Of a DNA stretch of 64,000 bases, positions 9,633 to 27,648 are shown piece after piece. Each line of letters begins with the position of its first letter. Position 1 is the stretch's first letter. The stretch spans positions 1-64,000 of IMG/VR virus record IMGVR_UViG_3300028490_000005; one strand, 5' to 3'. The DNA is from a virus. The notes beneath the pieces are model-generated. The model was given only the letters and a program-made list of their open reading frames with translations. It was not told the DNA's origin and ran no database searches. Made by a program: the position numbers and the translations under genes.

Positions 9633-9634
9633 TA

Positions 9635-12085: not shown

Positions 12086-13264
12086 ATGAAAACAAAAGAA
12101 GCAGACATACTTTATTGTGGTGTAGACAAAGAAAAGATTAAGAACGCAAATCCGATCTTAAATGAAGAAGTCCTTGGGTATCATCACTCTTACATGACTG
12201 AACGCCATAATATTTATAAGCGTAAAGAAATTGAAAAGTTACCACAAGACGAATGGACTGAAGATGAAGTGTTTAAAAATTATAGGTTCACAAATGTCAG
12301 AAGAGAACTTGACCGTGAGTCAGTGTGGTTAATAGCTCACATTTCAGAAAATCCAAATTTTACCCTTGAAGAAAAAATACTTTGGACTATGTTATTTAGA
12401 ACTTATAATAAATCATCAACTTTCATTAAGCTCGGTTTCCCATTTGATATTGATATTTTGAAATTCGATGATTCTGATAAAGAAAACCTTAGAAAAATCA
12501 TAGAAGACGAAATAGAAAGAGACCCTAAATATGTTTGGTTCACACCCGCATTCAACACTGGTGGTCTCAAGGCTACATGGGCAATGCCTGAAACAAAGGG
12601 TATGTACGAATGTACAAGTTCAAACATAGAAGTTGAAGTTGAGACTGATGACGGTATTGAAAAGATGACTTGGCGTGAAGCTAAAGATCTTCAAAAAGAA
12701 AATCCCAATTATAATATCAAAGGTGTAGAAAAGTCTATGCCTATGCGAATGATTCACTTAATAGACTATGTCAGGAAGACAGATATAGTAGAGCGTATCA
12801 TAAATGCAGAAACTCAAGAAAAGGCTTATGATATTATCAGAGAAATTGACGGGTTTTCCAACTTCTTAGGTTATCAGATATTTGTCGACTTCACTTATAT
12901 AAAAGAATACAAGTTCAGTGAAAACGAATTTACTATTTCCGGACCAGGATGCGACAGAGGACTTGATCTTATGTTTACGGATAAAGATGGAATGGATTCT
13001 TCAGAAGCATTGTTTTGGATTAGAGATAATATTGAAGCAGAGTGGAAGAAACGGGACTTGGAATTTGACGCAGAAGTGTTATTTGACCACCTCGAGCCTG
13101 AAGACCGTTGCATTAACGTGATGATGTTGGAAAATTCATATTGTGAAATCTCAAAATTTGTCAAGGCGAAACGTGGCACAGGAAGACCTCGTAACCGTTA
13201 CCACCCCACAATTGAAAGTGATGTAATTACACCAAATGAATGTTCAATCGACGAGTGGTTATAG
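12086..13264 (+). CDS. 5-hmdU DNA kinase-type helical protein (aGPT-PPlase family)
   Basis: 392 residues. Around residue 65 it has 'YRFTNVRRELDRES', which matches the signature I know from the all-helical alpha-glutamyl/putrescinyl-thymine pyrophosphorylase superfamily, whose 5-hmdU DNA kinase branch works in phages with hypermodified thymine (SP10, phiW-14, ViI type). These proteins act on 5-hydroxymethyluracil in DNA. Here the matching P-loop kinase domain sits in a separate protein at 18.4-20.5 kb. The C terminus is a basic Gly/Arg/Pro linker followed by SIDEWL, the putative clamp-binding tail shared with polymerase. The last 28 codons occur again downstream at 14204-14290. Family assignment is from motif memory; the subfamily is less certain. 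Confidence 0.68.
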   Translation: MKTKEADILYCGVDKEKIKNANPILNEEVLGYHHSYMTERHNIYKRKEIEKLPQDEWTEDEVFKNYRFTNVRRELDRESVWLIAHISENPNFTLEEKILWTMLFRTYNKSSTFIKLGFPFDIDILKFDDSDKENLRKIIEDEIERDPKYVWFTPAFNTGGLKATWAMPETKGMYECTSSNIEVEVETDDGIEKMTWREAKDLQKENPNYNIKGVEKSMPMRMIHLIDYVRKTDIVERIINAETQEKAYDIIREIDGFSNFLGYQIFVDFTYIKEYKFSENEFTISGPGCDRGLDLMFTDKDGMDSSEALFWIRDNIEAEWKKRDLEFDAEVLFDHLEPEDRCINVMMLENSYCEISKFVKAKRGTGRPRNRYHPTIESDVITPNECSIDEWL

Positions 13265-13288
13265 TTCGAGGGGCGTTTTTGCGAACTA
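13262..13288 (+). terminator. Hairpin at the stop codon of the preceding gene
   Basis: Seven-base inverted repeat TAGTTCG / CGAACTA (13262-13268 and 13282-13288) with a 13-base loop containing five T. No T-run follows the stem, so it may be a weak terminator or a processing/insertion boundary. Confidence 0.35.
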
Positions 13289-13292
13289 AGAC

Positions 13293-13300
13293 GTTAAATA
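13293..13300 (+). promoter_or_regulatory. Late-type promoter box GTTAAATA
   Basis: GTTAAATA-CTT just upstream of the HNH endonuclease gene, one base off the ATTAAATA boxes elsewhere in this window. Confidence 0.4.
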
Positions 13301-13316
13301 CTTTTAAGGAGTATTG

Positions 13317-14075
13317 ATGATCTTAGAAAAACTAAAAGAACTTGGTATAGAAAAACCACAACAATTATCAAGGTTCTTTCAAAAGCATTATAGAACTGGG
13401 AAGATGCCAAAGGGGCGTGAAGAATATTATGAAGAATTGTTGGAAGCTACTAAATGGCTTCCGATAAATTCCTCATATACACATCGTTGGTTTGTTCTTG
13501 AAAACGGGCTTAAGGACTATCCTGAGTGTTGTGAGTGTGGTGAACCGATTATTTGGAGACCACAAGCACCAGATGATATTGACCGTGATGTTTGTGGGAA
13601 GAAATGTTCAGCTATAAAAAGACAGCGTGAATATGTTGATGTTTATAAATTGGCTGCCCAGAAAGGTCATAAGTCCAAAGACCAAAAGGTTATTGGTAAA
13701 AAGATTTCAGAAGCTCGGTTATCATGGGATGATGAGTTTAAGAAAGAATTAACCAAACGTGTTTTGAAGACAAAATATGACAAAGGGATTTATAAAACTG
13801 GTAGATATAAAACAGATTGGCAACATTATAAGTCATTAGTCATTGCAATTACGAGAAAGGTAGATGTAACGCAATTTGAAAACTCTGAAAAAAGAGGGAA
13901 ATGTGGTATTGACGGAGCTTACCAATTAGACCATAAAATTAGCATAGATGAGGGGTTCAAACTTGGTTTGCTGCCATATATTGTTGGGAACTCTGAAAAT
14001 TTACAGATGATTCCTTGGTTAGAAAATTCAAGAAAAAAGGCAAAACCATATAAAGAATGGTTAGAAGGAGCTTAA
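13317..14075 (+). CDS. HNH homing-type endonuclease
   Basis: 252 residues. A Cys-rich zinc motif ('CCECGEP', 'VCGKKC') is followed by basic helices and a C-terminal HNH core: 'YQLDHKISIDEG' then 'NSENLQMIPWLEN' and 'RKKAK', the layout of phage HNH nicking/homing enzymes. The ATG at 13317 has AAGGAG five bases upstream (a TTG at 13314 is also in frame). It lies between the intact 392-aa gene and a repeated copy of that gene's tail, which marks it as an inserted mobile gene. Confidence 0.85.
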   Translation: MILEKLKELGIEKPQQLSRFFQKHYRTGKMPKGREEYYEELLEATKWLPINSSYTHRWFVLENGLKDYPECCECGEPIIWRPQAPDDIDRDVCGKKCSAIKRQREYVDVYKLAAQKGHKSKDQKVIGKKISEARLSWDDEFKKELTKRVLKTKYDKGIYKTGRYKTDWQHYKSLVIAITRKVDVTQFENSEKRGKCGIDGAYQLDHKISIDEGFKLGLLPYIVGNSENLQMIPWLENSRKKAKPYKEWLEGA

Positions 14076-14076
14076 A

Positions 14077-14205
14077 ATGTTAAAAGAAGTTTTAGATAAA
14101 ATAAAAGAAGAAAATATTAGTGATCTTGGTAAAAAGTCATCAAAAACCGTGGATGCGAATAAACCAGTTTTAGACAAAAAGGTTAAAGAAAATGCAGATA
14201 AGTAG
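14077..14205 (+). CDS. Tiny protein with MLKEVLD N-terminal tag
   Basis: 42 residues, Lys-rich, with GGAG seven bases before the ATG. The N terminus MLKEVLDKI matches the tag shared by the small late proteins at 32.4-34.2 kb (MLKEILEK, MLREIVEG). It may therefore be a packaged head protein that arrived together with the HNH gene. Confidence 0.6.
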   Translation: MLKEVLDKIKEENISDLGKKSSKTVDANKPVLDKKVKENADK

Positions 14206-14290
14206 AGGTACGGGGCGTCCTAGAAATAGATATACCCCAACAGAAGTTCAAGTCTGTGACAATGAGTGTAGTATAGATGAGTGGTTATAG
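14204..14290 (+). pseudogene. Orphan C-terminal tail of the 5-hmdU kinase-type gene
   Basis: An open stretch with no start codon encodes 28 residues beginning RGTGRPRNRY and ending NECSIDEWL. The intact gene ends in the same way at 13180-13264 (RGTGRPRNRY ... NECSIDEWL), with divergence only in the middle. The repeated copy also keeps the overlap with the following ATG, so it is probably the original 3' end, left behind when the HNH block was inserted. Confidence 0.85.
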
Positions 14291-14693
14291 ATTAGCTGTC
14301 GTTGGCTCCAGATACTTCGATGATTTTGAATTATTTGTCAAGGTCATGGATCGTTTAAGGTTAGTTAAAGATATTAAGGCTATAATATCAGGTGGAGCAC
14401 GGGGTGCTGACGCCATGGCTGAACATTATGCCGAAGTGAATAAAATACCATTAACAGTATTTGAAGCTGAGTGGGGCAAGTACGGAAAAGGTGCTGGTTA
14501 CATTCGCAACAAAGATATATGGGATGCTTCTGACATGGGTATAGCCTTCTGGGACGGTGAATCTAAGGGAACTGAACATTCATTTGAAATTGCTAGAAAA
14601 CAAAATAAACAATTACTTATATTTAATTATAAAAAGAATAGATGGGTAAATGAAAAAGGAGAAGAAATTGAGCAAATTAGACAAAGTAATTGA
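14277..14693 (+). CDS. SLOG/DUF2493-type nucleotide-binding protein
   Basis: 138 residues with an N-terminal 'VVGSRYFDD' strand-turn and 'IISGGARGADAMAEHYA' near residue 40, the signature of DUF2493/YspA-like Rossmannoid proteins of the SLOG superfamily, which bind nucleotide ligands. A further acidic patch 'AFWDGESKGT' near 90 fits the family. Such genes are common in phages with no settled role. Its ATG lies inside the orphan tail above, showing the ancestral gene overlap. Confidence 0.8.
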   Translation: MSGYRLAVVGSRYFDDFELFVKVMDRLRLVKDIKAIISGGARGADAMAEHYAEVNKIPLTVFEAEWGKYGKGAGYIRNKDIWDASDMGIAFWDGESKGTEHSFEIARKQNKQLLIFNYKKNRWVNEKGEEIEQIRQSN

Positions 14694-14907
14694 AACGATT
14701 ATCATTGTAAGAGATGGTAAGTTGGGTGAGGAAGTTCTTCGCAACCCATACCATAGTGCATTTTTCATGAGACAAATGGTTGAGTACGGGTTAGAAGGGT
14801 TTCACATCTCAGTGAAAAGTGGTATTTCAGATGATGAAAAATCAGAGATCATACAAGAAACGATAGATACTTGGGACAATGAACCCACAGAAATTACAGA
14901 CTTATAA
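14668..14907 (+). CDS. Small helical protein
   Basis: 79 residues if started at TTG 14668, which has a perfect AAGGAG six bases upstream; an in-frame ATG at 14650 would add six Lys-rich residues and overlap the ribosome site. Soluble, acidic C terminus; no recognised domain. Confidence 0.7.
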   Translation: MSKLDKVIETIIIVRDGKLGEEVLRNPYHSAFFMRQMVEYGLEGFHISVKSGISDDEKSEIIQETIDTWDNEPTEITDL

Positions 14908-14916
14908 GGAAAAATA

Positions 14917-15594
14917 ATGAAAACAGAAAACACAGAAAAGGCGTTTGAAATATTAACATCAGAACAATTTAATGAAATACTAGATGCACAAATGGAACTG
15001 AATGTAAAATATTCAGGAGAAAATTGGGCAAAAGATATTCCTGATTCACATATGCTCGCAGCAGCATTTGCGGAACTTGGAGAACTACTTGAATCTGGAC
15101 CAAGAGTTGGGGATTCAGACCTTAATGGTTGGAAATGGTGGAGAGAGAATTTAGACAATGATGATAATAATTTGAAAGTAGAAGCAGTGGACATTATTCA
15201 CTTCACTTTCTCTTCACTTGCTAAAAAATATAACGATATTGATTTATTGAAAAAGCATTACGCTGAATGTTCTAATGCATACAGAACTTCTCCAAATGCA
15301 CAAAGTGATGGTGAATCAACTGGTGTAGTTTATGATTTACTCCTTTCACTTAGTGTGTTCACTGTCACGTGTTTAATTGAAGACTCAGAAAAAGAGCAAC
15401 TTATGGATATGATGGTATTCCTTGTTAATGGTTTGTGTAGATTTTCAAACATGACAGCTGATGAAATGTTCGAGTTATATGGAAAGAAAAATAAACTAAA
15501 TCACAAAAGAGTTGAGGGTGGGTACAAAACTGGGGACTATGAAAAAGTAGATTCAGACGGAAATGAAGATAACGTAAAACTTTTTGAAGATTAA
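14917..15594 (+). CDS. dut: Dimeric all-alpha dUTPase
   Basis: 225 residues of the dimeric, MazG-related dUTPase family known from Campylobacter, trypanosomatids and some phages. Visible motifs: 'AAAFAELGELLES' near residue 48 (metal-binding acids), 'WKWWRENLD' near 69, 'EAVDIIHFTFS' near 89, and the C-terminal 'YGKKNKLNHKRVEGGYKTGDY'. It hydrolyses dUTP/dUDP to dUMP, which keeps uracil out of DNA and supplies substrate to the dUMP-acting TS homologue at 22.5 kb. Own ribosome site (AAGG). Strong assignment. Confidence 0.88.
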   Translation: MKTENTEKAFEILTSEQFNEILDAQMELNVKYSGENWAKDIPDSHMLAAAFAELGELLESGPRVGDSDLNGWKWWRENLDNDDNNLKVEAVDIIHFTFSSLAKKYNDIDLLKKHYAECSNAYRTSPNAQSDGESTGVVYDLLLSLSVFTVTCLIEDSEKEQLMDMMVFLVNGLCRFSNMTADEMFELYGKKNKLNHKRVEGGYKTGDYEKVDSDGNEDNVKLFED

Positions 15595-15623
15595 GCTTGT
15601 TTTAAGTGAACTTACGGTATAAT
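15591..15623 (+). promoter_or_regulatory. Early promoter cassette
   Basis: Two TTAAG elements, TTACGG and TATAAT at 15618-15623; the first element includes the dUTPase stop codon. Confidence 0.8.
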
Positions 15624-15649
15624 AGAGTATATTAAAATAAAGGTTCAAA

Positions 15650-15913
15650 ATGGCAAAGTTTTTAGATATAGATGAAGTATTTGTAGCAGAAGGTGATTTA
15701 AGATCAGTTGCGACTGAAGATGGGGAAGCATTCTATCCAGATTTACAGGTGGTTGCAATTGTAGACGATGAATATTTCGCTCACCCAAAAATTTATCCTG
15801 GAGGAGTTGGAGCTTTGGCTGACGCTGAAGACTTTGCGGAAGCTATTGATGACAGAGCTGAGATCAATGCATCCATTTGGGTTAGGGTAGATGAATTCGG
15901 AAGAAGAGCGTAA
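15650..15913 (+). CDS. Small acidic protein
   Basis: 87 residues, very acidic (many Asp/Glu/Ala), with an AAAGGTTCAAA leader. No recognised domain. One-base overlap with the next start. Confidence 0.75.
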   Translation: MAKFLDIDEVFVAEGDLRSVATEDGEAFYPDLQVVAIVDDEYFAHPKIYPGGVGALADAEDFAEAIDDRAEINASIWVRVDEFGRRA

Positions 15914-15999
15914 TGAGTTGTTTCTTGTACGCGATCTTGGCAGTAGCAGTTTCATTTTACCTATTGGCAGTTTTTGCCTACTGGATAAGTGAAAATTAA
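15913..15999 (+). CDS. Tiny membrane protein
   Basis: 28 residues starting on the preceding stop (TAATG), essentially one transmembrane helix (AILAVAVSFYLLAVFAYW) with a short polar end. A good fit for a single-pass inner-membrane peptide. Confidence 0.6.
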   Translation: MSCFLYAILAVAVSFYLLAVFAYWISEN

Positions 16000-16016
16000 G
16001 TTTAAAATAGTATAAT
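15996..16016 (+). promoter_or_regulatory. Early-type promoter
   Basis: TTAAG at the preceding stop codon, TTTAAAA and TATAAT at 16011-16016; spacing is shorter than in the canonical cassette. Confidence 0.5.
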
Positions 16017-16035
16017 AAAATAAAAAGGTGAAAGA

Positions 16036-16251
16036 ATGAAAAAAGAATTAAATTGGGCATGGCAAACTCCGGAGTACAATTCCCCAACATGGGATAAAGT
16101 TGACTCGGTAATTGATAATGGTTTGGCTACAGCGTTTGACAATAAGGCTGGTAATGCATTAGTGAACATTGTTGATTTCGGTATTATGAAATTAGAACAA
16201 TTTGGTGCTAAATTGGAAAATTACTTCAAAAAAGAAAGTGCTGATGTCTAA
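16036..16251 (+). CDS. Small hypothetical protein
   Basis: 71 residues, AAAGG ribosome site upstream, overlapping the HAD gene by eight bases. Begins with Trp-rich 'LNWAWQTPEYNSPTW'. No domain recognised. Confidence 0.7.
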   Translation: MKKELNWAWQTPEYNSPTWDKVDSVIDNGLATAFDNKAGNALVNIVDFGIMKLEQFGAKLENYFKKESADV

Positions 16252-16774
16252 AAAGATAATTGCAATTGACGTTGACTTGACTGTCGTAGACTCAGTCACC
16301 CCTTGGAAAGAGTGGTACACTGGTCTCACTGGGCACGATTTAGGTGAAATTACATCTGAAAATAATGACCTCGAAACTATGATGAAAAATCACAATGACC
16401 CTCTTCAATTCTGGCGAAAGCCTGATTTATATGACACTATGCAACCAATACCTGATGCTGTGAAATATATAAAATTGATTAAAGACCTTGGGTTTGAAGT
16501 GATATTCGTATCGGCTTGTATGGCTGAACATGAACAATCTAAGAGGTATTTTCTTCAAAGACATTTCCCTTACGCTGACGGCTTCATTTCTACTGGAGAT
16601 AAATCATATGTAAGATGTGACTATTTTGTTGATGACTATAAAAAGTATTGTAGACAAATGGTTAATAACGCAACAGTGTTCCAAATAATTACCGAATTGA
16701 ATTCTCCTTGTGATGAATTCCCTTATGTTACTTGGAAGGAAATATACGAAGTTATCGTTTCGGAGAATGAGTAG
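16244..16774 (+). CDS. HAD-family phosphatase, 5'-nucleotidase-like
   Basis: 176 residues from ATG 16244. HAD motif I 'AIDVDLTVVDS' (Asp-x-Asp-x-Thr) at residue 7, motif II Ser in 'IFVSAC' near 88, and an acidic motif IV 'YFVDDYKKY' near 127. Size and layout resemble phage deoxyribonucleotidases that remove 5' phosphates from dNMPs. In this operon it could remove an unwanted nucleotide or act on a modification precursor. Its stop overlaps the start of the glutamine amidotransferase by one base. Confidence 0.82.
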   Translation: MSKKIIAIDVDLTVVDSVTPWKEWYTGLTGHDLGEITSENNDLETMMKNHNDPLQFWRKPDLYDTMQPIPDAVKYIKLIKDLGFEVIFVSACMAEHEQSKRYFLQRHFPYADGFISTGDKSYVRCDYFVDDYKKYCRQMVNNATVFQIITELNSPCDEFPYVTWKEIYEVIVSENE

Positions 16775-17415
16775 TGTGTGGGGTCATTGGTGTTAATATG
16801 AAAGATGTGTCTAAAGAAGATTTAGACACAATCAAACGAGTATTTTTAGAAACTGAAATTAGAGGAAAACACGCAAGTGGTATTGCTTGGTATGACGGTG
16901 AAAAAATTACTTCTCAGAAAGCACCAGTACCCATATCACAATTCATGAAAACATTCGATTTATCTAAATGTTTATATGGAGATAACCAAATAACTCTGAT
17001 AGGGCACATTCGCTACAGTACCTCGGACATAAAGTATAATCAGCCCATAGGTAATGAAGCTGGAAGTTTTATTGTTCATAACGGAGTCGTGACACAATCT
17101 GATCCAGAACATTGGGAAGAACGCTATGGTTATTCTTGTCAGACAAAAAATGATTCAGAACTATTATACCATTGTTTAGAAGAAGGATTGGATATTGAAA
17201 CTAAATTCCCAATGGCTTCATATGCTCTACTTAGGCTTACTAGAGATGGTGAAATTGAATTTGAAAGGAATGGATTACGTCCAATGTGGGAAGCCACTTT
17301 AAGTAATGGTCACATTTTCTCAAGTACAAGAGATATTTTATTCAGATCTGGTGTATCAATTGATTCACTGAAAAGAGTACAAGCCAATAACGACAAACAA
17401 CACAGGACATTCTAA
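16774..17415 (+). CDS. Class II glutamine amidotransferase domain protein
   Basis: 213 residues starting GTG, so that after Met removal Cys2 is N-terminal (MCGVIGVN), as required for Ntn-type glutaminases. Further family motifs: 'RGKHASGIAWYDG' near residue 31, 'GHIRYST' near 76, 'FIVHNGVV' near 97 and 'KNDSELLYH' near 125. It releases ammonia from glutamine for a partner synthetase. Stand-alone GAT-II proteins are known next to amidoligases, and an amidoligase domain is encoded two genes downstream. GTG is supported by CGGAG nine bases upstream. Confidence 0.88.
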   Translation: MCGVIGVNMKDVSKEDLDTIKRVFLETEIRGKHASGIAWYDGEKITSQKAPVPISQFMKTFDLSKCLYGDNQITLIGHIRYSTSDIKYNQPIGNEAGSFIVHNGVVTQSDPEHWEERYGYSCQTKNDSELLYHCLEEGLDIETKFPMASYALLRLTRDGEIEFERNGLRPMWEATLSNGHIFSSTRDILFRSGVSIDSLKRVQANNDKQHRTF

Positions 17416-18407
17416 TGGATAGAAAAGACTTATTTATCGATTATTTCATAAATTCAGATAATGTGAGTGACATCGACCCAAATATTTGGATGGCGAACTA
17501 TGTAGTCGATAGGATGGAACTCAACGATGAACAGATTATATGGTTTTGTTTCTTAAATTCAATTACTTACCAATTCCCAACTTCTTACCTTTTAATTAAC
17601 GAATACCCAGATTTAGAAAATGTTGATATAGACAGATTATCGAATTGGTGGTTAGATGTGCAATCTAGGTGCCCATTTCAAACGGATAAACTCAAACAGA
17701 GGAAATTCCTACCTGAATCGATAGAAAGTTACCAGAAATTGGTGGACGGTTCCCAGAAAGAATATTTTGATAATATTCTTAATAAATCACCACAAGAAAA
17801 TTTTAGACTATTGTGGGAAGAGGTCTATGTACCAATTAGACACTTTGGTAGATTTTCAGTATGGAATTTTGCACAGATGTTAAAGCAAGTGGCTGGATAT
17901 GATATAGAACCAGATACTTTATTTCTAGGTGAAAGTAATTCGGAAAGTCACACACATGGTTTGTGTTATGCATTTGGTAAAGATGAATGGGCAAAGAAAG
18001 AACGCTATAAAGATGAAAATGGAAAGAGAAAAAAGAAAACTCATAAATTCTCAACTGAAGATAAATTGTTTTTAGAAACTGAAGCAGCAGAAATGATGGT
18101 CACTCTTAAATCAAAGGGTGCCAATGTTGATGCTTTTAATATTGAAACTGTAGCGTGTGCATTCAAGAAATTGTTCAGGGAAAGTGATAGTAGGTATGTT
18201 GGTTACTATTTAGATAGACAAGCCGAAGATATTATCAAATTAGAAAAGTTAAAATGGGACGGAGTCGATTGGTCTATTTTATGGGATGCTAGGAAAGAAT
18301 TGTTGGATAATGATTTATTATACACTACAATTCAAAAAGAAAGATTCAAAGAAGAACCAGATTCTAAGAAGTTTTCGAGTAAAAATACAATGTTGGAGTG
18401 GTTTTGA
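17415..18407 (+). CDS. ADDT-type amino acid:DNA transferase (aGPT-PPlase clade 2-like)
   Basis: 330 residues, all-helical in character. The central region has 'HFGRFSVWNFAQML' near residue 142 and, after a spacer, 'LFLGESNSESHTHGLC' near 170. This matches the FGR-x-(A/V)W...ML and S-x-S-H-x-x-GLC pattern I associate with the phage family that displaces the phosphate of phosphomethyl-dU in DNA with an amine or amino acid. The C terminus is SKNTMLEWF, related to the shared tail. It overlaps the next gene. Family call is from memory of the motif and its gene neighbours. Confidence 0.62.
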   Translation: MDRKDLFIDYFINSDNVSDIDPNIWMANYVVDRMELNDEQIIWFCFLNSITYQFPTSYLLINEYPDLENVDIDRLSNWWLDVQSRCPFQTDKLKQRKFLPESIESYQKLVDGSQKEYFDNILNKSPQENFRLLWEEVYVPIRHFGRFSVWNFAQMLKQVAGYDIEPDTLFLGESNSESHTHGLCYAFGKDEWAKKERYKDENGKRKKKTHKFSTEDKLFLETEAAEMMVTLKSKGANVDAFNIETVACAFKKLFRESDSRYVGYYLDRQAEDIIKLEKLKWDGVDWSILWDARKELLDNDLLYTTIQKERFKEEPDSKKFSSKNTMLEWF

Positions 18408-20500
18408 TATTTAAAATAATTAATGAAAGTGATATATTGGGTGCAATGATCCCAAATGATTATAAAAAAGATAGTTTTGCTAGAACTGTAATTAGTAAGT
18501 GCAACACATATGATTTATGGGATAAAACCTATGGATATTATGTCGGTGATGAGTTGGTTGGAATTATGATAACTACATTTACAAAGAGAAATCCAATAAC
18601 TGCTAATTTACAAATTCTATTCACATATTATAGGTATAGAGGAAACGGTTATGCCAAAGCAATGGTTTTAGAAACTATCCGACAAGCACATGAATATGGT
18701 TGTGAATACTATAGGGTGTCATCAGAAGCTAGTGCAGTAGAATTCTATGAAAAAATTGGCTTTAAATTTTTCTGTAAACAAAAAAGTGGGACACAGTTAA
18801 GTATTTTTAAAGTTAATAATAGTATAATAGAGGATAAAGATTTTATCCGAGATGAAAATATGGATAAAATGTATTTCAGAAAAGGTAAAGGTGGTTGTGT
18901 GGAAATTTTAGGTGAATATAAAAAAGAGGATTTATCTTTCGGTACGGAATTGGAATTTTCGAATATACCGAAGAGTAAAGAGGTTCCCAAAGAGTTGGGA
19001 AAATGGGAATATTCTGAACTTGATGTTGTAAATACTAAGGGTGAATATGCATTTAAGTGTGCAGACCCTCGAGGTACAGAAGTTCCAGTCGGTGGGGAAA
19101 TTAATACAATTCCATCAAAAAACTTTGTTGATCAAGTTGATAAAATTATGAATATCATAAAATATTTTAAGGAAGATGATGTTGATGTTGGATTAACCGC
19201 ACACACTCATTTACACGTACATATAGATGGTATCGAAGATGATCCGGAAGCATTAGCAAGGTTAGTGAATTATATCTACGATAATCAGGAAACTACCTTG
19301 CGAGAATGTTATGCGTTCAATGAAGATATAATTCCAAAGGAAAAAAGGTTTTCAAAAATTAAAAGGTATCTGAAATTTGATGGTGGGAGACCTTTACCTG
19401 AATGGTTCAAGGATAACGCAGTTGATAATGTTGACACATTCGACGGCTTCTTAGACGCTATTGGTTGGGGGATTAAAAAAGAACCAATTAGATATCAACG
19501 GTATCACATTAATTTACATGCTTTGAAAAATTCAAAGACAATAGAATTCAGGTGTTTCAGGGGATCTTTGGACGAAACTGAGTATTTGGATATGTTTGCA
19601 TTTGTTCAGGAGTTTATCCTTAATGGGTTGAACGGTGGTGACTCTGTTCAGGAAATATTAAACAAACGAGACTATAAATTTCCTCGGATGCAATTTAACG
19701 AAGATCAGGCGATTGGTTGGCAAGATACGAAATATGATTCAAATAGATGTGGTAAGAAGAATAGAGAATATTGGCAAGCAGATAAAGCTTCTGAAAAAAT
19801 ATATGAAATGAAGAAAAAGGAGAAAATTATGGGAAATTTACATTTAATAAATTATATGGGTGCAAACGGTGTCGGGAAGTCTACTAGAACTTTTCATTTA
19901 GTGGATTACATGAAAAATACCATGGATTTTACTGAATTCAAATATGGCATTACACGTAAAGGTAATGATGAAAAGGAAGAAACTATCGGGTTGTTATTTG
20001 AAAATGGTTGGTTAGTTCTTGGTAAATTTTCTAAAGAGAATACTCAATGGGTTTCACTTGATTCAGCCATTTTAAGCAAGTGGGAACATCGTATTGCCTT
20101 CATAGAAGACATGTCCAAAAGGGGTGAAATTAAGGTAGTGTTCATGGAAGGGTATTTCAATAACAGAAGTCGCCAATCATCCCCTGAGAATTTAAAGGCT
20201 CACGGGGTTTCCAAAGTGGAAATTCTAACTTCATATTATAATGATATATCAGAATTTATTGACAGAACTAATGGTAGAACTGGAAAGAATAGAGGGATGG
20301 AATGGGCTGAACAATCTCCTGGATGGAATGATAATAAATTATTCGACAAACTATACAATGAATTTATAGAAGAGGTTAATGAGTCTGCTATAGTCGAAAG
20401 AATTGATATAAACTCACCCCGTGACACATTGGTCAATAGGTTTTTTGATAAGAGTTATGTCAAGAAAGAAGAAGTAAATGTAATGGATGAATGGTTGTAA
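18404..20500 (+). CDS. Fusion: GNAT acetyltransferase - amidoligase - P-loop (5-hmdU-type) kinase
   Basis: About 698 residues in one frame. Residues 1-140: GNAT fold with 'YRYRGNGYAKAMV' acetyl-CoA loop near 75 and 'EFYEKIGFKF' near 110. Residues 155-455: COOH-NH2 amidoligase with 'FGTELEF' near 179, 'VGGEINTIPS' near 228, 'HTHLHVHID' near 267 and 'TIEFRCFRGSLD' near 379. Residues 475-698: P-loop kinase with 'GANGVGKST' near 486 and catalytic-looking 'VFMEGYFNNRSRQ'. The tail is VMDEWL. TTG 18404 has GGAG five bases upstream (GTG 18398 also in frame). A promoter-like element (18796-18828) and an internal AAGGAG-ATG (19817-19831) lie at the domain junctions. Likely role: making and attaching an amine/amino acid group on hydroxymethyl-dU in DNA. 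Confidence 0.8.
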   Translation: MIFKIINESDILGAMIPNDYKKDSFARTVISKCNTYDLWDKTYGYYVGDELVGIMITTFTKRNPITANLQILFTYYRYRGNGYAKAMVLETIRQAHEYGCEYYRVSSEASAVEFYEKIGFKFFCKQKSGTQLSIFKVNNSIIEDKDFIRDENMDKMYFRKGKGGCVEILGEYKKEDLSFGTELEFSNIPKSKEVPKELGKWEYSELDVVNTKGEYAFKCADPRGTEVPVGGEINTIPSKNFVDQVDKIMNIIKYFKEDDVDVGLTAHTHLHVHIDGIEDDPEALARLVNYIYDNQETTLRECYAFNEDIIPKEKRFSKIKRYLKFDGGRPLPEWFKDNAVDNVDTFDGFLDAIGWGIKKEPIRYQRYHINLHALKNSKTIEFRCFRGSLDETEYLDMFAFVQEFILNGLNGGDSVQEILNKRDYKFPRMQFNEDQAIGWQDTKYDSNRCGKKNREYWQADKASEKIYEMKKKEKIMGNLHLINYMGANGVGKSTRTFHLVDYMKNTMDFTEFKYGITRKGNDEKEETIGLLFENGWLVLGKFSKENTQWVSLDSAILSKWEHRIAFIEDMSKRGEIKVVFMEGYFNNRSRQSSPENLKAHGVSKVEILTSYYNDISEFIDRTNGRTGKNRGMEWAEQSPGWNDNKLFDKLYNEFIEEVNESAIVERIDINSPRDTLVNRFFDKSYVKKEEVNVMDEWL
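18796..18828 (+). promoter_or_regulatory. Relict or active promoter inside the fusion gene
   Basis: TTAAG at 18797, a second TTTAAAG about 11 bp on, and AGTATAATAGAGG with TATAAT at 18823-18828: the same spacing as the early cassettes, placed exactly between the GNAT and amidoligase domains. Confidence 0.55.
19817..19831 (+). promoter_or_regulatory. Internal ribosome site and in-frame ATG for the kinase domain
   Basis: AAGGAG at 19817-19822, six bases, then ATG 19829-19831 in frame with the fusion. Initiation here would yield a stand-alone kinase of about 223 residues keeping the MDEWL tail. Confidence 0.6.
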
Positions 20501-21075
20501 TGGATATATTTGATCTACTGAGAACTGAAGTAATTGTACACGACGACGAAATTTCAGAACATGTTGCATTCAAGGTAAAAGAAATTCAGGGTAACAACCA
20601 AACATTTGGTCGTGACCAAATGACAATGGAAAACCATGTGAAAAGTGGTTCAATTCTCGAGATAGGGCTTGCTAAGTTAATTGATGGAGTTGTTAATCCA
20701 AATCTATTCGATTCAAGTGATCCTGAAAGCTTTGCTTGGGATGTTGAAAAAGGTGGTGTTAGGTTTGAAGTCAAATCATCACCAAAGGCAGATTCTTGGT
20801 TTAATTTTAATCTCCATGGTGTTGAGAATAGTTCTAATGAAACACTAACCAGAGTTAATTTAACAACTTTTCTGAAATATTCATCATATTCTAATTTCAT
20901 TATCGCTGGGTATTATACTGAAAGTGGTAGTGGTTATGTTGTGAAGTTTAAGTGGTTGATGAAATCACTCACATTTCAAAATTATGTTAAAAAGTCTAGA
21001 GCTTCTGGAAAGGGGACTACTAATTATTATGATATCGTCAGTTCGAAGAGAAATTTGGATTGTTTCGAACTTTAA
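20500..21075 (+). CDS. PD-(D/E)xK-like nuclease candidate
   Basis: 191 residues from ATG 20500, which overlaps the preceding stop (TAATG); ATG 20491 is also in frame. A helix with 'SILEIGLAKLIDG' is followed by 'FAWDVEKGGVRFEVKSSPK', the Asp...Glu-x-Lys spacing of the PD-(D/E)xK nuclease core. No DNA-binding motif is recognisable. Translationally coupled to the fusion enzyme, so it may act on the same DNA, for instance on unmodified DNA. The motif alone is not proof. Confidence 0.55.
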   Translation: MDIFDLLRTEVIVHDDEISEHVAFKVKEIQGNNQTFGRDQMTMENHVKSGSILEIGLAKLIDGVVNPNLFDSSDPESFAWDVEKGGVRFEVKSSPKADSWFNFNLHGVENSSNETLTRVNLTTFLKYSSYSNFIIAGYYTESGSGYVVKFKWLMKSLTFQNYVKKSRASGKGTTNYYDIVSSKRNLDCFEL

Positions 21076-21104
21076 GATTGTTTTAAGTTAAATTACGCTA
21101 TAAT
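21071..21104 (+). promoter_or_regulatory. Early promoter cassette
   Basis: TTTAAGATTG / TTTTAAG repeat, TTACGC and TATAAT at 21099-21104, starting at the preceding stop codon. Confidence 0.75.
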
Positions 21105-21128
21105 ATACGAAATAAAGAAGGGTAAATT

Positions 21129-22286
21129 ATGATAAGAGAACTAGACGCAAAATCCGAGAAAAATAAGAAAAGATTAATAAAGTTACTCAATGACGATATT
21201 GTATTGGTTGCCGATGAAAATAAAATTTGTAGGTTGAGAACTAAGGATTTAGAATGTGTTGATGGTGAAATTTCCACAGCTGAATTCCATAAACAAAAAT
21301 CACATGATATTTTTATTAATGAATCACTTTGGTACATATACTTCATCAATAAAGACAAAAAAGAATTTGGTATTAAATTCAACAGCCAATCAGACGCAGT
21401 TTCCTTTTGGTATAAAGAAGTATTCAATGTAGATGATGCGACTTTTGTGACTGTAGTTGCTACAGAGACAGCTAATGAAGAGAGAGTGAAAATAGTTTTG
21501 GAAAACAACAAATCATATTCATTCACTGAAAGATTGATGTCAAATAGTGGTGAAGAAGCTAGAGCATATAAATTCTATTCACATAAATTGGATGAGTACG
21601 CTATAATTTCGAAAGATAATTTAAAAGATAATTGTGAGACATTGGATTTAGATGATCATTTACCAGCTGAATATCTATTTTGTGTGGAATATGAAAGAAT
21701 TTTTAACATAAGCCTTGATTATAGAAATATCATCTCACTTGAATATGTCAATAAAGATGGTCAAAAATTGGCTACTTTTAAGGACGGTTCTTCATATAAA
21801 TATAACCAGTCTCAATTACATCGAAATAATAACTTTCCAATTATGTCATATATGAATTTTGGCTCAGAAGAATTTAAATCTCTTGTTTGTAGAATTACTG
21901 GACATAGATTTTTCAATGACAGTAAAATCCTAAAACATCAAAATTATTCTGCTAAATTTAGTGCTGATTTTCACCACATGTTAGTTATTGATGGTGCAAG
22001 CGTACATAAGATTAGTAAAGAACCTTCTGCACTATTAAACGGTAAAATGAATGACCAAATATTCTTTGAATTGTTGTTTTGTACTATGATTTCTGGTTAC
22101 GCTCATAAAGATTACCATTCAAAAGCTAGGAATATGAAGTTAAGTGATTACTATGAAGAACATTTACCGTTACACGTAGTGAGTGAGAGCCACTACTACA
22201 TTACTCATAAGAAATATGGATTTGTACCGAGACTTACTTGGCACGAGTTTAGACAAGCATTGGAAGGGGTATTAACAATTGATTAA
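21129..22286 (+). CDS. Large hypothetical protein in the modification island
   Basis: 385 residues, soluble, mixed alpha/beta character, with its own promoter and an AAGG ribosome site. Several Tyr/His-rich segments near the C terminus ('SESHYYITHKKYGF') but no known catalytic motif that I recognise. Being alone with a strong promoter amid modification genes makes it a candidate for an uncharacterised pathway step. Confidence 0.75.
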   Translation: MIRELDAKSEKNKKRLIKLLNDDIVLVADENKICRLRTKDLECVDGEISTAEFHKQKSHDIFINESLWYIYFINKDKKEFGIKFNSQSDAVSFWYKEVFNVDDATFVTVVATETANEERVKIVLENNKSYSFTERLMSNSGEEARAYKFYSHKLDEYAIISKDNLKDNCETLDLDDHLPAEYLFCVEYERIFNISLDYRNIISLEYVNKDGQKLATFKDGSSYKYNQSQLHRNNNFPIMSYMNFGSEEFKSLVCRITGHRFFNDSKILKHQNYSAKFSADFHHMLVIDGASVHKISKEPSALLNGKMNDQIFFELLFCTMISGYAHKDYHSKARNMKLSDYYEEHLPLHVVSESHYYITHKKYGFVPRLTWHEFRQALEGVLTID

Positions 22287-22485
22287 TTTACTTGGGCAAA
22301 AGGATTGGGGTGTTGGATACATAAAGCAATGTAGGAATGATCAAGTGAAGGTGGAAATCGAAGATTACATAAACAAATTGTCATCTGGGTTTAAATATGA
22401 TTATGATATATCTGATATACAAATACATAAGATTAACGATTCTATGTATTGTTCAGTTTGGTTTTCATATTCTAGAACCAAATAA
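22279..22485 (+). CDS. Small hypothetical protein
   Basis: 68 residues from TTG 22279, overlapping the preceding stop; GGGG upstream is the only ribosome-site candidate. No domain recognised. Confidence 0.55.
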   Translation: MINLLGQKDWGVGYIKQCRNDQVKVEIEDYINKLSSGFKYDYDISDIQIHKINDSMYCSVWFSYSRTK

Positions 22486-22517
22486 TTAAGTCTCCTTTAA
22501 GGTTTTACAGATATAAT
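22484..22517 (+). promoter_or_regulatory. Early-type promoter for dUMP hydroxymethylase gene
   Basis: TTAAG and TTTAAGG 11 bp apart, TATAAT at 22512-22517. Confidence 0.7.
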
Positions 22518-22538
22518 AAAACAAAAAGGAGACTATGT

Positions 22539-23648
22539 TTGAAACCAACATTAATAAACGGAAAAAGTATAAATGAGGTCGTATTCAATTCACTGGATAG
22601 ACTTATTCATAACGGATACCGAACAAAATCAAGAAACGGTGATATTAACACCGTGTATAACGCATTTGTCACTCTAGACAATCCCAAGGCAAGACACCTT
22701 TCATTAGAAGGGCGTAAAAACAACATATTCGCAACAATAGCCGAGACTTTCTGGGTATTCGCTGGTTCTAATGATATAGACCCTTATTTGAGCTTCTTTC
22801 TACCAAGAGCTAAAGACTTTTCAGATGACGGTAAAACATGGCGTGGTGGTTATCCTGAGCGTATTTTCGCGAATGAACAAATCGACGATGTCATTGAACA
22901 ATTTAGAAACGAGGGTATTCATACCAGACGAGCAGTTATGGTAATTTCAGACCCAAGCCTTGATACAAGGGTGGCACTTGATAAGGTGTATGGACTTGAA
23001 ACAACTAAAGATAGACCATGCAATATGATTATTGACTTCTTTATTACACCAGACAAACGATTACACATGAACGTGAAATCAAGATCAGGTGATGTAATTT
23101 GGGGATTTGGATCAATTAATATTTTTGAATGGACTTTCCTTCAAGAAATGATTTTAGGTTATATCCAAGATGAAATTGACCCTGATGTAACACTCGGAGA
23201 ATACAACCATCACGTGACGAATTTACACCTTTATGACTTCAATGGCTCACAAGGTTACGATGTAGTAAGAAATAAGCTTGAACAGAAGTTAGGGTTAAAT
23301 GCTGATGACAAAATTGAATTCCCAGTTATTGAAGAAGTACATGAGTTCTTTAAAGAACTTGTAAATATGTATAGTAAATGTATCACCTCTCCGGAGTTAC
23401 CAGATTTTGGTAGAGATATACTTGATATGAACTTCATTTTCGATAAATATAGAGTTCCTCAAACAGATAATATCTTGTATGAATATGCTTGTTTGGTTTT
23501 AGCGTATATTATGCAAAAACGCCATAAGTTAGCAGAAGAAGATTTCTTCCTCTTAATAGACCTCAAAGCATCTGACGAATTCTTCCATTGTATAGAAAGT
23601 TCACCGTTCAAGAAGTTTGAAATTGAAAGAGTAACGGGGAATCATTAA
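22539..23648 (+). CDS. Thymidylate synthase homologue, probable dUMP hydroxymethylase
   Basis: 369 residues starting TTG with AGGAG eight bases upstream. TS-fold motifs: catalytic Cys in 'RPCN' near residue 160, phosphate-binding 'SRSGD' near 182, 'SINIFEW' near 193 and 'NLHLYD' near 227. Asn in the SINI motif corresponds to E. coli TS Asn177, which selects uracil; dCMP hydroxymethylases have Asp there. It is longer than housekeeping TS (about 264 aa), as phage dNMP hydroxymethylases are. With a dUTPase, a dNMP kinase and 5-hmdU-DNA enzymes nearby, production of 5-hydroxymethyl-dUMP is the best reading. Ordinary dTMP synthesis cannot be excluded from sequence. Confidence 0.82.
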   Translation: MKPTLINGKSINEVVFNSLDRLIHNGYRTKSRNGDINTVYNAFVTLDNPKARHLSLEGRKNNIFATIAETFWVFAGSNDIDPYLSFFLPRAKDFSDDGKTWRGGYPERIFANEQIDDVIEQFRNEGIHTRRAVMVISDPSLDTRVALDKVYGLETTKDRPCNMIIDFFITPDKRLHMNVKSRSGDVIWGFGSINIFEWTFLQEMILGYIQDEIDPDVTLGEYNHHVTNLHLYDFNGSQGYDVVRNKLEQKLGLNADDKIEFPVIEEVHEFFKELVNMYSKCITSPELPDFGRDILDMNFIFDKYRVPQTDNILYEYACLVLAYIMQKRHKLAEEDFFLLIDLKASDEFFHCIESSPFKKFEIERVTGNH

Positions 23649-23863
23649 TGGAAATTTATGAAATCACAATTAATGATGAAGTTTTTGTTAGTATGGATAC
23701 GGATTACGAAGGCACAATCGATACTGTAATTCTTGAGAATAATCTATATGGTAAGAATAAATTCCTAAGAAAAGAATTCTTTCATAGATTTACTGAAGAT
23801 GGACCAGAAAAAATAACACGGATAGAAATGTCTAAAATTTTAATTCACAGTGAGGATAATTAG
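23648..23863 (+). CDS. Small acidic protein
   Basis: 71 residues, one-base overlap with the TS homologue stop. Acidic, beta-rich looking; no recognised domain. Confidence 0.7.
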   Translation: MEIYEITINDEVFVSMDTDYEGTIDTVILENNLYGKNKFLRKEFFHRFTEDGPEKITRIEMSKILIHSEDN

Positions 23864-24685
23864 ATGACAAGTTGGGAAATGATTGAACGAAACGCAAAAG
23901 AAGTTAGAGAGAACGGGTATTATATTCAAAGAGGTATGCTTTCAAATTTAGATATTGAATGTATCCTTGACGTAACAATTCCTGCAATAGCTAATAATTA
24001 TACAGAAGAATATGTAGAAAAGCGTTTGTATAGAAAACGCGAGAATACTGAAGGGAGACAAGGCGATGCTGTATTAATGTCTATTGGTACACCAGATACA
24101 GCACCATTCATGTCGCTAGATGATAGATTCCCTTGTATTGGTGGGTTGTACTTAAGTTACGTGAACACATTAAGTCAACTCCTTTATGGTGATTTTAGAC
24201 TTGAAGATAATACAAAAGTTCTTGTAAATTATCAACAATACAAAGAAGGGGCAAGTAATTCTTTACCTTTCCACTTTGACGCTGAGATTTTCAAGGGTGA
24301 TTGGAACAAAGACTACATTAAGCTTGAAGAAGGGCTTATCCCTAGAATGGTAATGGTGGTTGTGCTTGAAAATGAAAATGATGGTAAGGGCTTACAAATC
24401 ATGACACCAAAGGGTGACATCATTGATTTAGACCTTGTTCCTGGAGACATTTTATATTTCGATAATACGGCTGTTCTACATGGTGTACCAGATGATCTTG
24501 ATAAAAAGCGTACAATGATTGGTTTCAGAAGTTTTGAAACTGAACCACTTTTATTCAATAAACTTGGGTTTATGGATGGAACGGGTGTTATTGAGATTGA
24601 TACACCATATGTCAAGGGTGAAGCGATTGAACTTACTACTGAAAACGCAAAAGAAGAACTAATAAGAGAAGGATGGTATTATTAA
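23864..24685 (+). CDS. 2-oxoglutarate/Fe(II) oxygenase-like protein
   Basis: 273 residues with a double-stranded beta-helix signature: 'LPFHFDAEIF' (His-x-Asp) near residue 137, 'LVPGDILYFDNTAVLHGVP' near 195 with the distal iron His, and 'KKRTMIGFR' near 217 supplying the oxoglutarate Arg. These enzymes hydroxylate or oxidise substrates using O2 and 2-oxoglutarate. Position directly after the dUMP hydroxymethylase makes a nucleotide, a DNA base or a modification precursor plausible substrates. It could also act on a small molecule. The overlap TAATG couples it to the next gene. Confidence 0.78.
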   Translation: MTSWEMIERNAKEVRENGYYIQRGMLSNLDIECILDVTIPAIANNYTEEYVEKRLYRKRENTEGRQGDAVLMSIGTPDTAPFMSLDDRFPCIGGLYLSYVNTLSQLLYGDFRLEDNTKVLVNYQQYKEGASNSLPFHFDAEIFKGDWNKDYIKLEEGLIPRMVMVVVLENENDGKGLQIMTPKGDIIDLDLVPGDILYFDNTAVLHGVPDDLDKKRTMIGFRSFETEPLLFNKLGFMDGTGVIEIDTPYVKGEAIELTTENAKEELIREGWYY

Positions 24686-24867
24686 TGAAAAAGTATAAAT
24701 ATTCAAAGTTGGTAGAGAAGGACATTGTTAAGAGATGTCCTTCTTGTGAGGGTTCTGGGCGTTGGTATGGTCATGGAGCATTCGGTGAACCAGAAAGTGA
24801 TACGTGTGGCAGATGTCGTGGTGAAGGTGTTATATTAAATTGGGATAATATTAATCGGGAAAAATGA
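24685..24867 (+). CDS. DnaJ-type zinc-ribbon protein
   Basis: 60 residues from ATG 24685. Two CxxCxGxG-like repeats, 'CPSCEGSGRW' and 'CGRCRGEGV', form a DnaJ-central-domain-like zinc site. Probably a small protein-interaction or nucleic-acid-binding module; no J domain present. Confidence 0.75.
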   Translation: MKKYKYSKLVEKDIVKRCPSCEGSGRWYGHGAFGEPESDTCGRCRGEGVILNWDNINREK

Positions 24868-25064
24868 TGATTGAAATTAATGATGTGAGACAACTTGACC
24901 AATTAAAAATCGGTGCTGATTTTAAGCTAGTCAGTGGGTTGAATATCCTCATCACCGATACGGGAATGAATTTAATCTTCATAGAAACTGAACATCTAAC
25001 CATAAAGGCGTTCCCACTTGGGGAAGGCATGTATAGATTTAAAGATAAACAAATAAACATTTAG
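24864..25064 (+). CDS. Small hypothetical protein
   Basis: 66 residues, four-base overlap with the zinc-ribbon gene. Hydrophobic beta-strand pattern, no recognised domain. Confidence 0.65.
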   Translation: MMIEINDVRQLDQLKIGADFKLVSGLNILITDTGMNLIFIETEHLTIKAFPLGEGMYRFKDKQINI

Positions 25065-25072
25065 GAAAAATA

Positions 25073-25615
25073 ATGATAAATATAAATTTTTTTGGTGGAC
25101 CTGGAACGGGAAAATCAACAACATCAACTGGAGTTTTCCATGCTATGAAAAAAGAAGGGTATAGTGTCGAATACGTTTCGGAATATGCTAAAGACCTTGT
25201 TTACAGTAAAGATTATTTCAAACTCAAAGATCAATTAATGATTTTGGCTAACCAATCTCATCCTTGGTTCAAATTAGAAGAACAAGTGGACTTTACTATT
25301 AATGATGGACCATTTCTTCTTGGGTTAGTATATTTACAAGACAACCCGCATATGCCAACTGAAGAGTTTAAAGCGTTCTTGGTAGCGATGTGGAATTCAT
25401 ATACCCACATTAACATATTCATTGAAAGAGACGTAGAAGCTCACGGTTATCAAGAATATGGGCGTGGTCAAACATTAGCAGAAGCTGTTGAAAAAGATAA
25501 CGAAATCAAACAAATCCTTTATGATAACAATATACCGTTCTTTTCAGTTGTGATGGGTGATGACACGGTTCAATATGCTCTTGATATTATTAAAGATTTG
25601 AAAAGGGGTAAATAA
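25073..25615 (+). CDS. P-loop ATPase/kinase, NadR/AAA_28-like
   Basis: 180 residues with Walker A 'FFGGPGTGKSTTS' at residue 5, 'YVSEYAKDLV' near 37, 'DGPFLLGLVY' near 84 (Asp of the Walker B region) and 'VEAHGYQEYGRGQ' lid-like arginine near 128. The layout is that of NadR-type kinases found in large phages. It could phosphorylate a nucleoside, an RNA/DNA end or a modification intermediate. Upstream of a dNMP kinase in the same operon. Confidence 0.78.
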   Translation: MININFFGGPGTGKSTTSTGVFHAMKKEGYSVEYVSEYAKDLVYSKDYFKLKDQLMILANQSHPWFKLEEQVDFTINDGPFLLGLVYLQDNPHMPTEEFKAFLVAMWNSYTHINIFIERDVEAHGYQEYGRGQTLAEAVEKDNEIKQILYDNNIPFFSVVMGDDTVQYALDIIKDLKRGK

Positions 25616-26167
25616 ATGGAAACAATTAAAATAGCGTTCATGGGTGTCAGTGGTAGTGGTAAAGATTACATTGTAGATGTAGCAAAAAAGAATTTCGAAT
25701 TCACGAGGTTCAGTTTCTCTGACCAACTAAAGAAATTGGGTGCTAAAATATACCCATGGTTGGAAAGTGATTATCCACCAGAAGAAAAGGAAAAGTCACT
25801 TAATATTAAGATTCCTGAGACTGGTGAAGTAATTACTAAATCACCAAGGGAAATTTGGCTAGAACTTAATAAAATGAGAAATGTAGAAGATAACTTATTT
25901 GTCAGGATGTTGGCTCATGAAATTTGGTTGACACAAGTTGACCGTCTAGTAATATCTGATATTAGAACGCAAAATGAATATGATTGGTGTGTGGAAAATG
26001 ATTTTACTATCATCGCCATAAAAGGGGATGCCAAACACCCTGAAAACTCATTTGATGACTGGGTTAGAGACATGATAGACATGGGTGAATATGATTTTGA
26101 ATTTACTAATGAATTTGATGGTCATGAAAAGATTGAGACTTTCTTTACAAGTTGCTTCGACCTTTAA
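25616..26167 (+). CDS. Deoxynucleoside monophosphate kinase, gp1-like
   Basis: 183 residues with Walker A 'GVSGSGKDY' at residue 10 and 'FSFSDQLKKLG' near 34, as in T4 gp1 and related dNMP kinases, then 'LVISDIRTQNEYDWC' near 109, the family's second conserved region. It would phosphorylate dNMPs, including hydroxymethyl-dUMP made by the TS homologue. It ends in an early promoter cassette, whose first TTTAAG contains its stop. Confidence 0.82.
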   Translation: METIKIAFMGVSGSGKDYIVDVAKKNFEFTRFSFSDQLKKLGAKIYPWLESDYPPEEKEKSLNIKIPETGEVITKSPREIWLELNKMRNVEDNLFVRMLAHEIWLTQVDRLVISDIRTQNEYDWCVENDFTIIAIKGDAKHPENSFDDWVRDMIDMGEYDFEFTNEFDGHEKIETFFTSCFDL

Positions 26168-27474: not shown

Positions 27475-27648
27475 ATGGACATAGATCTTACAGACGGAAA
27501 ACGTTTATTTATAGACACTAAAGGGCTTGGAGAAATCTTAATTAAAGAAACTTCAAAAGGCTTAGAAATCTCTGCTACCAACGCTTCAATTTTAATTAAG
27601 CCACGTGGAGAAAACGCAATCACCATTATCAATCAGGAGATAGAATGA
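27475..27648 (+). CDS. Very small protein before the Thg1-like gene
   Basis: 57 residues, promoter and AAAGGCTTAAA leader immediately upstream, four-base overlap (ATGA) with the Thg1-like gene. No domain recognised. Confidence 0.7.
   Translation: MDIDLTDGKRLFIDTKGLGEILIKETSKGLEISATNASILIKPRGENAITIINQEIE

Follow-up and report, generated by a model that had tools for sequence, protein, structure and literature searches.

The closest described counterparts of the locus analysed here, a candidate thymidine hypermodification region at positions 12,086 to 26,167 of IMG/VR record IMGVR_UViG_3300028490_000005, are Salmonella phage ViI with 5-(2-aminoethoxy)methyl-2'-deoxyuridine (5-NeOmdU), Pseudomonas phage M6 with 5-(2-aminoethyl)-2'-deoxyuridine (5-NedU), and Delftia phage phiW-14 with putrescinyl-thymidine. 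The record comes from an uncultured virus, is 82,337 bases long and is classed as linear; the window, meaning the whole stretch analysed, comprises its bases 1-64000. The roles of the enzymes in the ViI pathway were reportedly worked out by Lee et al. in 2018. As in the window, genes for HMUDK_hel (Vi01_130c), HMUD2 (Vi01_196), ADDT (Vi01_199), a thymidylate synthase (TS) homologue, and a dUTPase are present in ViI, and HMUD2 is common to both. The polymerase and modification enzymes of ViI also share a C-terminal tail, although its sequence (VNLLxxL) is different. M6 and phiW-14 have HMUDK_hel and ADDT homologues. Unlike the window, ViI has no match to the window's class II glutamine amidotransferase (GAT-II) or to Amidoligase_2, and GAT-II and the amidoligase were likewise unmatched in M6 and phiW-14.

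Single features of the locus resemble other systems. In Gat-QueC and the dG+ of phage 9g type, the ammonia for a DNA base comes from a class II amidotransferase; the base there is 7-deazaguanine and not thymine. The TET/JBP, aGPT-PPlase, and kinase systems, e.g., that of Rhodococcus phage Tonitrus (PMC11955845), are kin to the relatives designated class B that lie beside TET/JBP genes; no GAT-II, amidoligase, or GNAT is among the five genes that are listed for Tonitrus (PMC11955845), and the window differs from this type by its dUMP-hydroxymethylase route and lack of TET/JBP. The CmoA/CmoX/CmoY carboxymethylcytosine system (PMC12783734) is similar in the amide bond on a DNA base and in the glutamine-hydrolysing domain of one CmoY cluster, but it uses cytosine and an asparagine-synthetase-type ligase, whereas thymine/uracil and a ligase of glutamine synthetase/gamma-glutamylcysteine ligase (GS/GCS) fold are predicted for the window.

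We interpret the region as a clamp-tethered thymidine hypermodification pathway, with a probability of about 0.7. To judge from the gene families, the enzymes appear to put a large decorated base, derived from thymine, in the place of thymine. The system would be a variant of thymidine hypermodification that is extended by a GAT-II/amidoligase/GNAT branch and probably linked to the sliding clamp; part of this gene neighbourhood may be covered by Iyer et al. 2013 and Lee et al. 2022. On this reading, many uncultured phages would carry thymine side chains with amide bonds, a class for which no described base was matched here.

Enzymes of the candidate modification region

The following genes and domains were located in the region.

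12086-13264, + strand: HMUDK_hel, 392 aa, 5-hydroxymethyl-2'-deoxyuridine (5-hmdU) DNA kinase helical family (PF18723, 1.2e-58); tail ..SIDEWL
14917-15594, + strand: dimeric dUTPase/NTP pyrophosphohydrolase (PF08761, dUTPase_2, 6.8e-17)
16202-16774, + strand: NT5C-like deoxynucleotidase (PF06941, 7.7e-13)
16774-17415, + strand: GAT-II, stand-alone, putative ammonia donor (PF13522, GATase_6, 1.6e-7)
17415-18407, + strand: ADDT, 330 aa, amino acid:DNA transferase family (PF18724, 2e-16); tail ..TMLEWF
18398-18880, + strand: GNAT domain of a 700-aa fusion (PF13673, Acetyltransf_10, 5e-9)
18881-19837, + strand: amidoligase domain of the fusion, carboxylate-amine ligase of GS/GCS fold (Amidoligase_2, 1.2e-3, under the curated cut-off)
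19838-20500, + strand: HMUD2-type P-loop 5-hmdU DNA kinase domain of the fusion (PF18747, 4.9e-7, above cut-off); tail ..VMDEWL
20491-21075, + strand: DenB-like endonuclease IV (phrog_1360, 8.2e-11)
22539-23648, + strand: TS homologue, probable dUMP hydroxymethylase with retained Asn (phrog_3676, 1.3e-85; Pfam, 1e-8)
23864-24685, + strand: 2-oxoglutarate (2OG)-Fe(II) oxygenase, prolyl-hydroxylase-like, not TET/JBP (HxD..H..R; AlphaFold2 model and Foldseek)
25073-25615, + strand: P-loop nucleotide kinase (phrog_2107, 1.9e-18)
25616-26167, + strand: dNMP kinase, likely for hydroxymethyl-dUMP to hydroxymethyl-dUDP (phrog_139, 5.5e-28)

Pfam, PHROGs, and structure models located all enzymes named in a preliminary description of this DNA at the positions given there. 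Beforehand, that description had staked its reading on whether profiles would place the 392-aa and 330-aa proteins; Pfam placed the former in HMUDK_hel and the latter in ADDT, as a 5-hmdU-kinase-type helical protein and an ADDT-type transferase had been proposed. The dimeric dUTPase and the dNMP kinase were recovered by their profiles, and the Asn of the TS homologue, described as being of uracil type, aligns to the Asp of the CMP hydroxymethylase MilA, the closest enzyme among solved structures. The glutaminase assignment agrees with the residues Cys2, R80, N103, G104, and D127, which are invariant in the alignment and supply the N-terminal Cys nucleophile, Gln-binding Arg, Asn-Gly oxyanion hole, and Asp of the class; PurF was the PDB match. 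Three items were absent from the description: the NT5C-like deoxynucleotidase, the DenB-like endonuclease, and the HMUD2 membership of the fusion's kinase. The first could possibly remove dTMP, and the second may attack unmodified DNA.

Two of the predicted proteins, the amidoligase and the 2OG oxygenase, are weak by sequence, so their assignment was settled by structure models. The amidoligase domain was modelled with a mean confidence (pLDDT) of 89.9, and its top Foldseek matches were gamma-glutamylcysteine ligases, YbdK, and glutamine synthetases. Of 29 aligned rows, all or almost all retain the motifs GxExE, GGExN, HxH, and TxEFR, with E23, E25, E73, H110, H112, R207, E222, and R224 invariant, and the amidoligase of the related contig L005 scores higher in Pfam (9e-10). 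The claimed GNAT-amidoligase-kinase fusion (18398-20500) is borne out in this way, Walker A of its HMUD2 domain being intact. The oxygenase model (pLDDT 89.3) has 2OG prolyl hydroxylases as its best PDB matches (E 1e-10), and the protein combines a double-stranded beta-helix fold with an invariant HxD..H motif and the 2OG-binding Arg. The Tet_JBP profile had no match among the window proteins scanned. PDB sequence searches with ADDT, HMUDK_hel, and the amidoligase gave no credible match. HMUDK_hel is 40% identical to its Ackermannviridae homologues, and ADDT was found in all eight records tested.

These families suggest how the base would be started. The dUTPase would make dUMP and the TS homologue would turn it into hydroxymethyl-dUMP; the dNMP kinases would lift this to the triphosphate while the NT5C-like enzyme drains dTMP, and 5-hmdU would enter the DNA. 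Phosphorylation of 5-hmdU in DNA would then fall to HMUDK_hel and a P-loop kinase, for which the HMUD2 domain of the fusion is the simplest candidate; this role is proposed because homologues occur in ViI, M6, and phiW-14. It weighs against this step that the kinase working with HMUDK_hel in the window is conjectural, as HMUDK_HMUD1 was looked for in the window record and is absent. A simpler outcome would be DNA with plain 5-hmdU or one of the short side chains already known, while the additional enzymes decay or act elsewhere. This is very unlikely, as every frame is open, the catalytic motifs are conserved and undamaged, and dozens of contigs keep the gene order of the module described below.

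Polymerase-like C-terminal tails

A T4-like replisome is encoded in the window, with a split DNA polymerase, clamp loader, single-strand binding protein, 5'-exonuclease, and gp45-like clamp. The genes relevant here are the following.

138-575, + strand: gp62-like clamp loader subunit (phrog_225, 3.2e-16)
7521-8699, + strand: split T4-type DNA polymerase, C-terminal half (phrog_262, 2.8e-86); tail ..DMEEWM
37763-38464, + strand: gp45-like sliding clamp (hidden Markov model (HMM) from the relatives' family, 9.8e-14)
40823-41917, + strand: 5'-exonuclease/RNase H-like protein (phrog_107, 6.7e-48); tail ..AMDEWI

Among the 318 open reading frames (ORFs) of at least 40 aa in the six frames of the window, exactly five end in EW[LIFM], with about 0.04 expected per 100 genes. 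They code for the polymerase, HMUDK_hel, ADDT, the GNAT-ligase-kinase fusion, and the 5'-exonuclease. The same or a near-variant tail occurs in the related contigs L005, L006, L172, and L173. In phages with TET/JBP genes, the polymerase ends in LE(D/E)FF, and TET/JBP, ADDT, and some GNATs end nearly likewise. The strict pattern of this group was found in 32 of 60 TET/JBP proteins and 27 of 69 ADDTs, in none of 69 GAT-II proteins or 60 amidoligases, and in 14 of 872 other genes, several polymerases among them. GAT-II, which has no tail, does not need contact with DNA.

The same feature is seen in cultured phages. In ViI, the polymerase, HMUDK_hel, HMUD2, and ADDT all end in VNLLxxL (tail peptide ..SVNLLDRLKKPE), and the tail is present in 5 of 279 ORFs over about 70 kb. 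In 50 kb of Vibrio phage K469, exactly four of 256 ORFs end in [KR]LW (tail peptide ..KTRKLW), and these are the polymerase, HMUDK_hel, an HMUD2-like protein, and ADDT. When tails of enzymes were compared with that of the polymerase of their own lineage, the group mean scores were 19-22.5, vs. 6-12 for other tail groups; phiW-14 was not counted, its polymerase lying outside the stretches fetched. In these phages, the tails of the DNA-acting enzymes match that of the phage's own polymerase.

In T4, the polymerase, gp55, and gp33 have similar and interchangeable C-termini that bind the gp45 clamp (PMC2988020). The tails found here resemble these C-termini. They would be explained most simply by docking of the DNA-acting enzymes on the sliding clamp, which suggests that modification is coupled to replication. 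The EW[LFIM] tails of HMUDK_hel, ADDT, and the fused kinase would bind the gp45-like clamp, as predicted for the polymerase, and new DNA would be modified behind the fork. The T4 alpha-glucosyltransferase offers a parallel as a base-modifying enzyme that binds gp45 (PMC13216743); T4 uses one glycosyltransferase, while the window has several successive enzymes carrying the polymerase's own tail. Clamp binding did not set the level of alpha-glucosylation in T4 (PMC13216743), which speaks against such a coupling.

The tails could also bind another replisome protein or be a signal for degradation or localisation. The KLW tail of K469 would fit this, being basic vs. the acidic T4 motif. We consider it unlikely, since T4-type polymerases bind gp45 by their extreme C-terminus (PMC2988020), a gp45-like clamp and a clamp loader are encoded in the window, and the 5'-exonuclease has the tail too, as does a Dam-type methyltransferase of L173. 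If the clamp reading holds, the polymerase-type tails predict a tethered, co-replicative modification, and the timing and place of hypermodification relative to the fork become testable. Genes ending like the phage's polymerase give a search rule for further modification enzymes.

Several smaller observations concern these proteins. The methyltransferase of L173 (4417-5196) is an adenine methyltransferase of D12 class and ends in SIDEWL, like the polymerase group. A 70-aa protein of ViI (Vi01_049c, L011:30355-30567) ends in VNLLSLMRK, like the ViI polymerase, and is possibly a small clamp binder. The two polymerase genes of the window, 3237-4757 and 7521-8699, are about 2.8 kb apart with a GT11 gene between them, and the split is common to L005 and L006. 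Weak PDB sequence matches of the window's clamp candidate to internalin were judged spurious. The relatives' HMM settled it as a clamp; a member of that family (L088:12207-12896) matches gp45-slide_C (PF09116) in Pfam.

The recurrent module and the proposed amide branch

Single-sequence scans of the collection with the fusion or with ADDT gave two loci each, and three-row alignments were needed to collect the relatives. The module was surveyed on 80 loci fetched by the amidoligase alone, out of 310 relatives. About 75 viral contigs have the order GAT-II, amidoligase, GNAT, ADDT, kinase, in most cases with a TET/JBP oxygenase next to it, and nearly every amidoligase-fetched locus long enough to judge shows it. 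The enzyme set, which the preliminary description had called unusual, is indeed present in the window but peculiar to no single genome, and is better described as a recurrent module. The thymidine-hypermodification reading itself is supported: the defining genes are present, and since the GAT-II/amidoligase/GNAT set travels with ADDT in many contigs, its connection with base modification is real.

Class-B loci have a TET/JBP oxygenase, ADDT, a kinase, and often a ParB-like/GIY-YIG-like protein as neighbours of the amidoligase, and GNAT is a separate gene there; in L063, for example, the matches were Tet_JBP (2.7e-22), Ploopntkinase3 (4.3e-12), and ADDT (8.7e-20). About nine contigs are like the window and have a dUMP-hydroxymethylase homologue and/or HMUDK_hel/HMUD2 in place of TET/JBP. 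TET/JBP contigs of up to 162 kb were tested for HMUDK_hel and TS; TS was lacking, and HMUDK_hel exceeded the cut-off in none of them. There seem, therefore, to be two entry routes of 5-hmdU into the same module, hydroxymethylation at the nucleotide level as in the window and oxidation in DNA by TET/JBP.

L005, a 140-kb contig, has the gene order of the window, with ligase and HMUD2 kinase as separate genes. In L142, ligase and HMUD2 kinase are joined in a two-part protein. L006, L172, and L173 have flanks as in the window, an ADDT of another clade, and, by eye, a gene resembling pyridoxal phosphate (PLP) enzymes that replaces GAT-II and the ligase. The scan of bacterial genomes with the amidoligase gave two loci only, and the enzyme is, therefore, almost confined to phages. 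No cultured phage carrying the full module was found in the scans of phage records; the nearest isolate record is phage Simon, with amidoligase, ADDT, HMUDK_hel, and TS.

Amidoligase_2 and GATase genes are carried by LUZ24-, phiEco32-, and Marvin-type phages as well, with a suggested role in the cell wall (PMC10580990, citing Iyer 2009; PMC3890496). GAT-II, amidoligase, and GNAT of the window could be such a cell-wall or peptide-tag module that entered the operon by chance. This is scarcely probable. The fusion of ligase and GNAT with an HMUD2 domain ties both to the 5-hmdU kinase family, as does the ligase fusion of L142. The LUZ24-type set consists of a 385-aa amidoligase, a 486-aa GATase, a COOH-NH2 ligase, and an ATP-grasp protein (PMC3890496), the proteins being larger than those of the window, and no link to ADDT or a 5-hmdU kinase was found for the LUZ24/phiEco32 set (PMC3890496, PMC10580990). 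ATP-grasp and COOH-NH2 ligase were seen neither among the window genes scanned nor among the relatives' frequent neighbours, no dedicated profile search having been made. The class-B amidoligase matched two phage records only, neither of them LUZ24-like, and the hypothesis of a module common to the window and LUZ24-like phages was dropped.

The occurrence of GAT-II follows ADDT and not the amidoligase. On a tree built from 41 ADDT proteins, the presence of GAT-II needs one change and that of the amidoligase eight. At least nine loci have GAT-II with ADDT but without amidoligase, among them contigs of 61.7, 46.8, 44, and 39 kb with no amidoligase anywhere, and in loci found via ADDT alone GAT-II is present in all where the contig reaches far enough; the sample as a whole had in part been gathered by searching with GAT-II and the ligase. 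ADDT with GAT-II can be told apart in this way, as a conserved core, from a swappable decoration set.

Since GAT-II is tied to ADDT on the tree, the likeliest reading is that it feeds ammonia from glutamine to ADDT, which would replace the phosphate on 5-hmdU to give 5-aminomethyl-dU. This is the weakest step of the pathway, and its chances, resting on co-occurrence, are put a little short of even. Several points weigh against it: to our knowledge, ADDT enzymes of known substrate take amino acids or amines and not ammonia; phage Simon has amidoligase and ADDT without a GAT-II of the window type; and in TET/JBP contigs GAT-II adjoins the amidoligase, for which ammonia would fit equally well.

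ADDT could instead attach a whole amino acid via its amine, in the known way of ViI, M6, and SP10, with GAT-II and amidoligase forming a glutamine-dependent amidating ligase that acts on the free carboxylate, and GNAT capping the product or acting elsewhere. Amino acids are the substrates of known ADDT members, and in almost every TET/JBP locus the genes for GAT-II and the amidoligase lie side by side or overlap. A glutaminase-type ligase has also been suggested for a CmoY cluster in cytosine hypermodification (PMC12783734). This alternative is possible, with the odds distinctly against it: GAT-II stays with ADDT in the loci without amidoligase, including those on 39-62 kb contigs, and the ligase changes eight times on the ADDT tree vs. 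once for GAT-II.

With ammonia as the nucleophile of ADDT, the GS/GCS-fold amidoligase would couple the amine of 5-aminomethyl-dU to a carboxylate; candidates are the gamma-carboxyl of Glu, on the model of GmaS, and, in loci with PanD, beta-alanine. GNAT would then acylate the product and the 2OG oxygenase may hydroxylate it, in this presumed order. A wider scheme is offered tentatively: a GAT-II-dependent ADDT branch would make 5-aminomethyl-dU in DNA as a common handle, GS/GCS ligases and GNATs would add amide chains (e.g., acyl-gamma-glutamyl- or beta-alanyl-aminomethyl-dU), and across T4-like phages the successive enzymes would dock on the clamp with C-terminal tails copied from their own polymerase.

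Some relatives show further variation. A PanD aspartate decarboxylase gene (L005:8001-8375, 1.4e-47) adjoins GAT-II in L005 and suggests beta-alanine as a side-chain unit. The TS homologue of the same contig (12835-14907) has 690 aa and is interrupted by an insert that, by eye, resembles an intein and probably contains an HNH homing nuclease. Cassettes with two or three amidoligase genes in L058, L047, and L098 suggest several successive ligations. In L006, the PLP-enzyme-like domain is fused to an HMUDK_HMUD1 kinase (8177-9967); the PLP-like gene is separate in L172 and L173. In Vibrio phage 2.275.O (L175:6866-11126), a relative of the amidoligase lies beside QueF-like, QueC, and GAT-like genes of the 7-deazaguanine pathway.

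Neighbouring genes

A megablast search with the window gave no match to cultured phages. Directly upstream of the modification region is a GT11 fucosyltransferase gene (6689-7471), and a GDP-fucose set with a mannose-P isomerase domain, GDP-mannose dehydratase, and fucose synthase is also found upstream (9204-11576); the latter three adjoin the operon in L005 too. The fucose acceptor could be the base, the capsid, or the host surface. Downstream of the region, at 27645-28541, a Thg1-like tRNA-His guanylyltransferase homologue was recognized by eye from its sequence.

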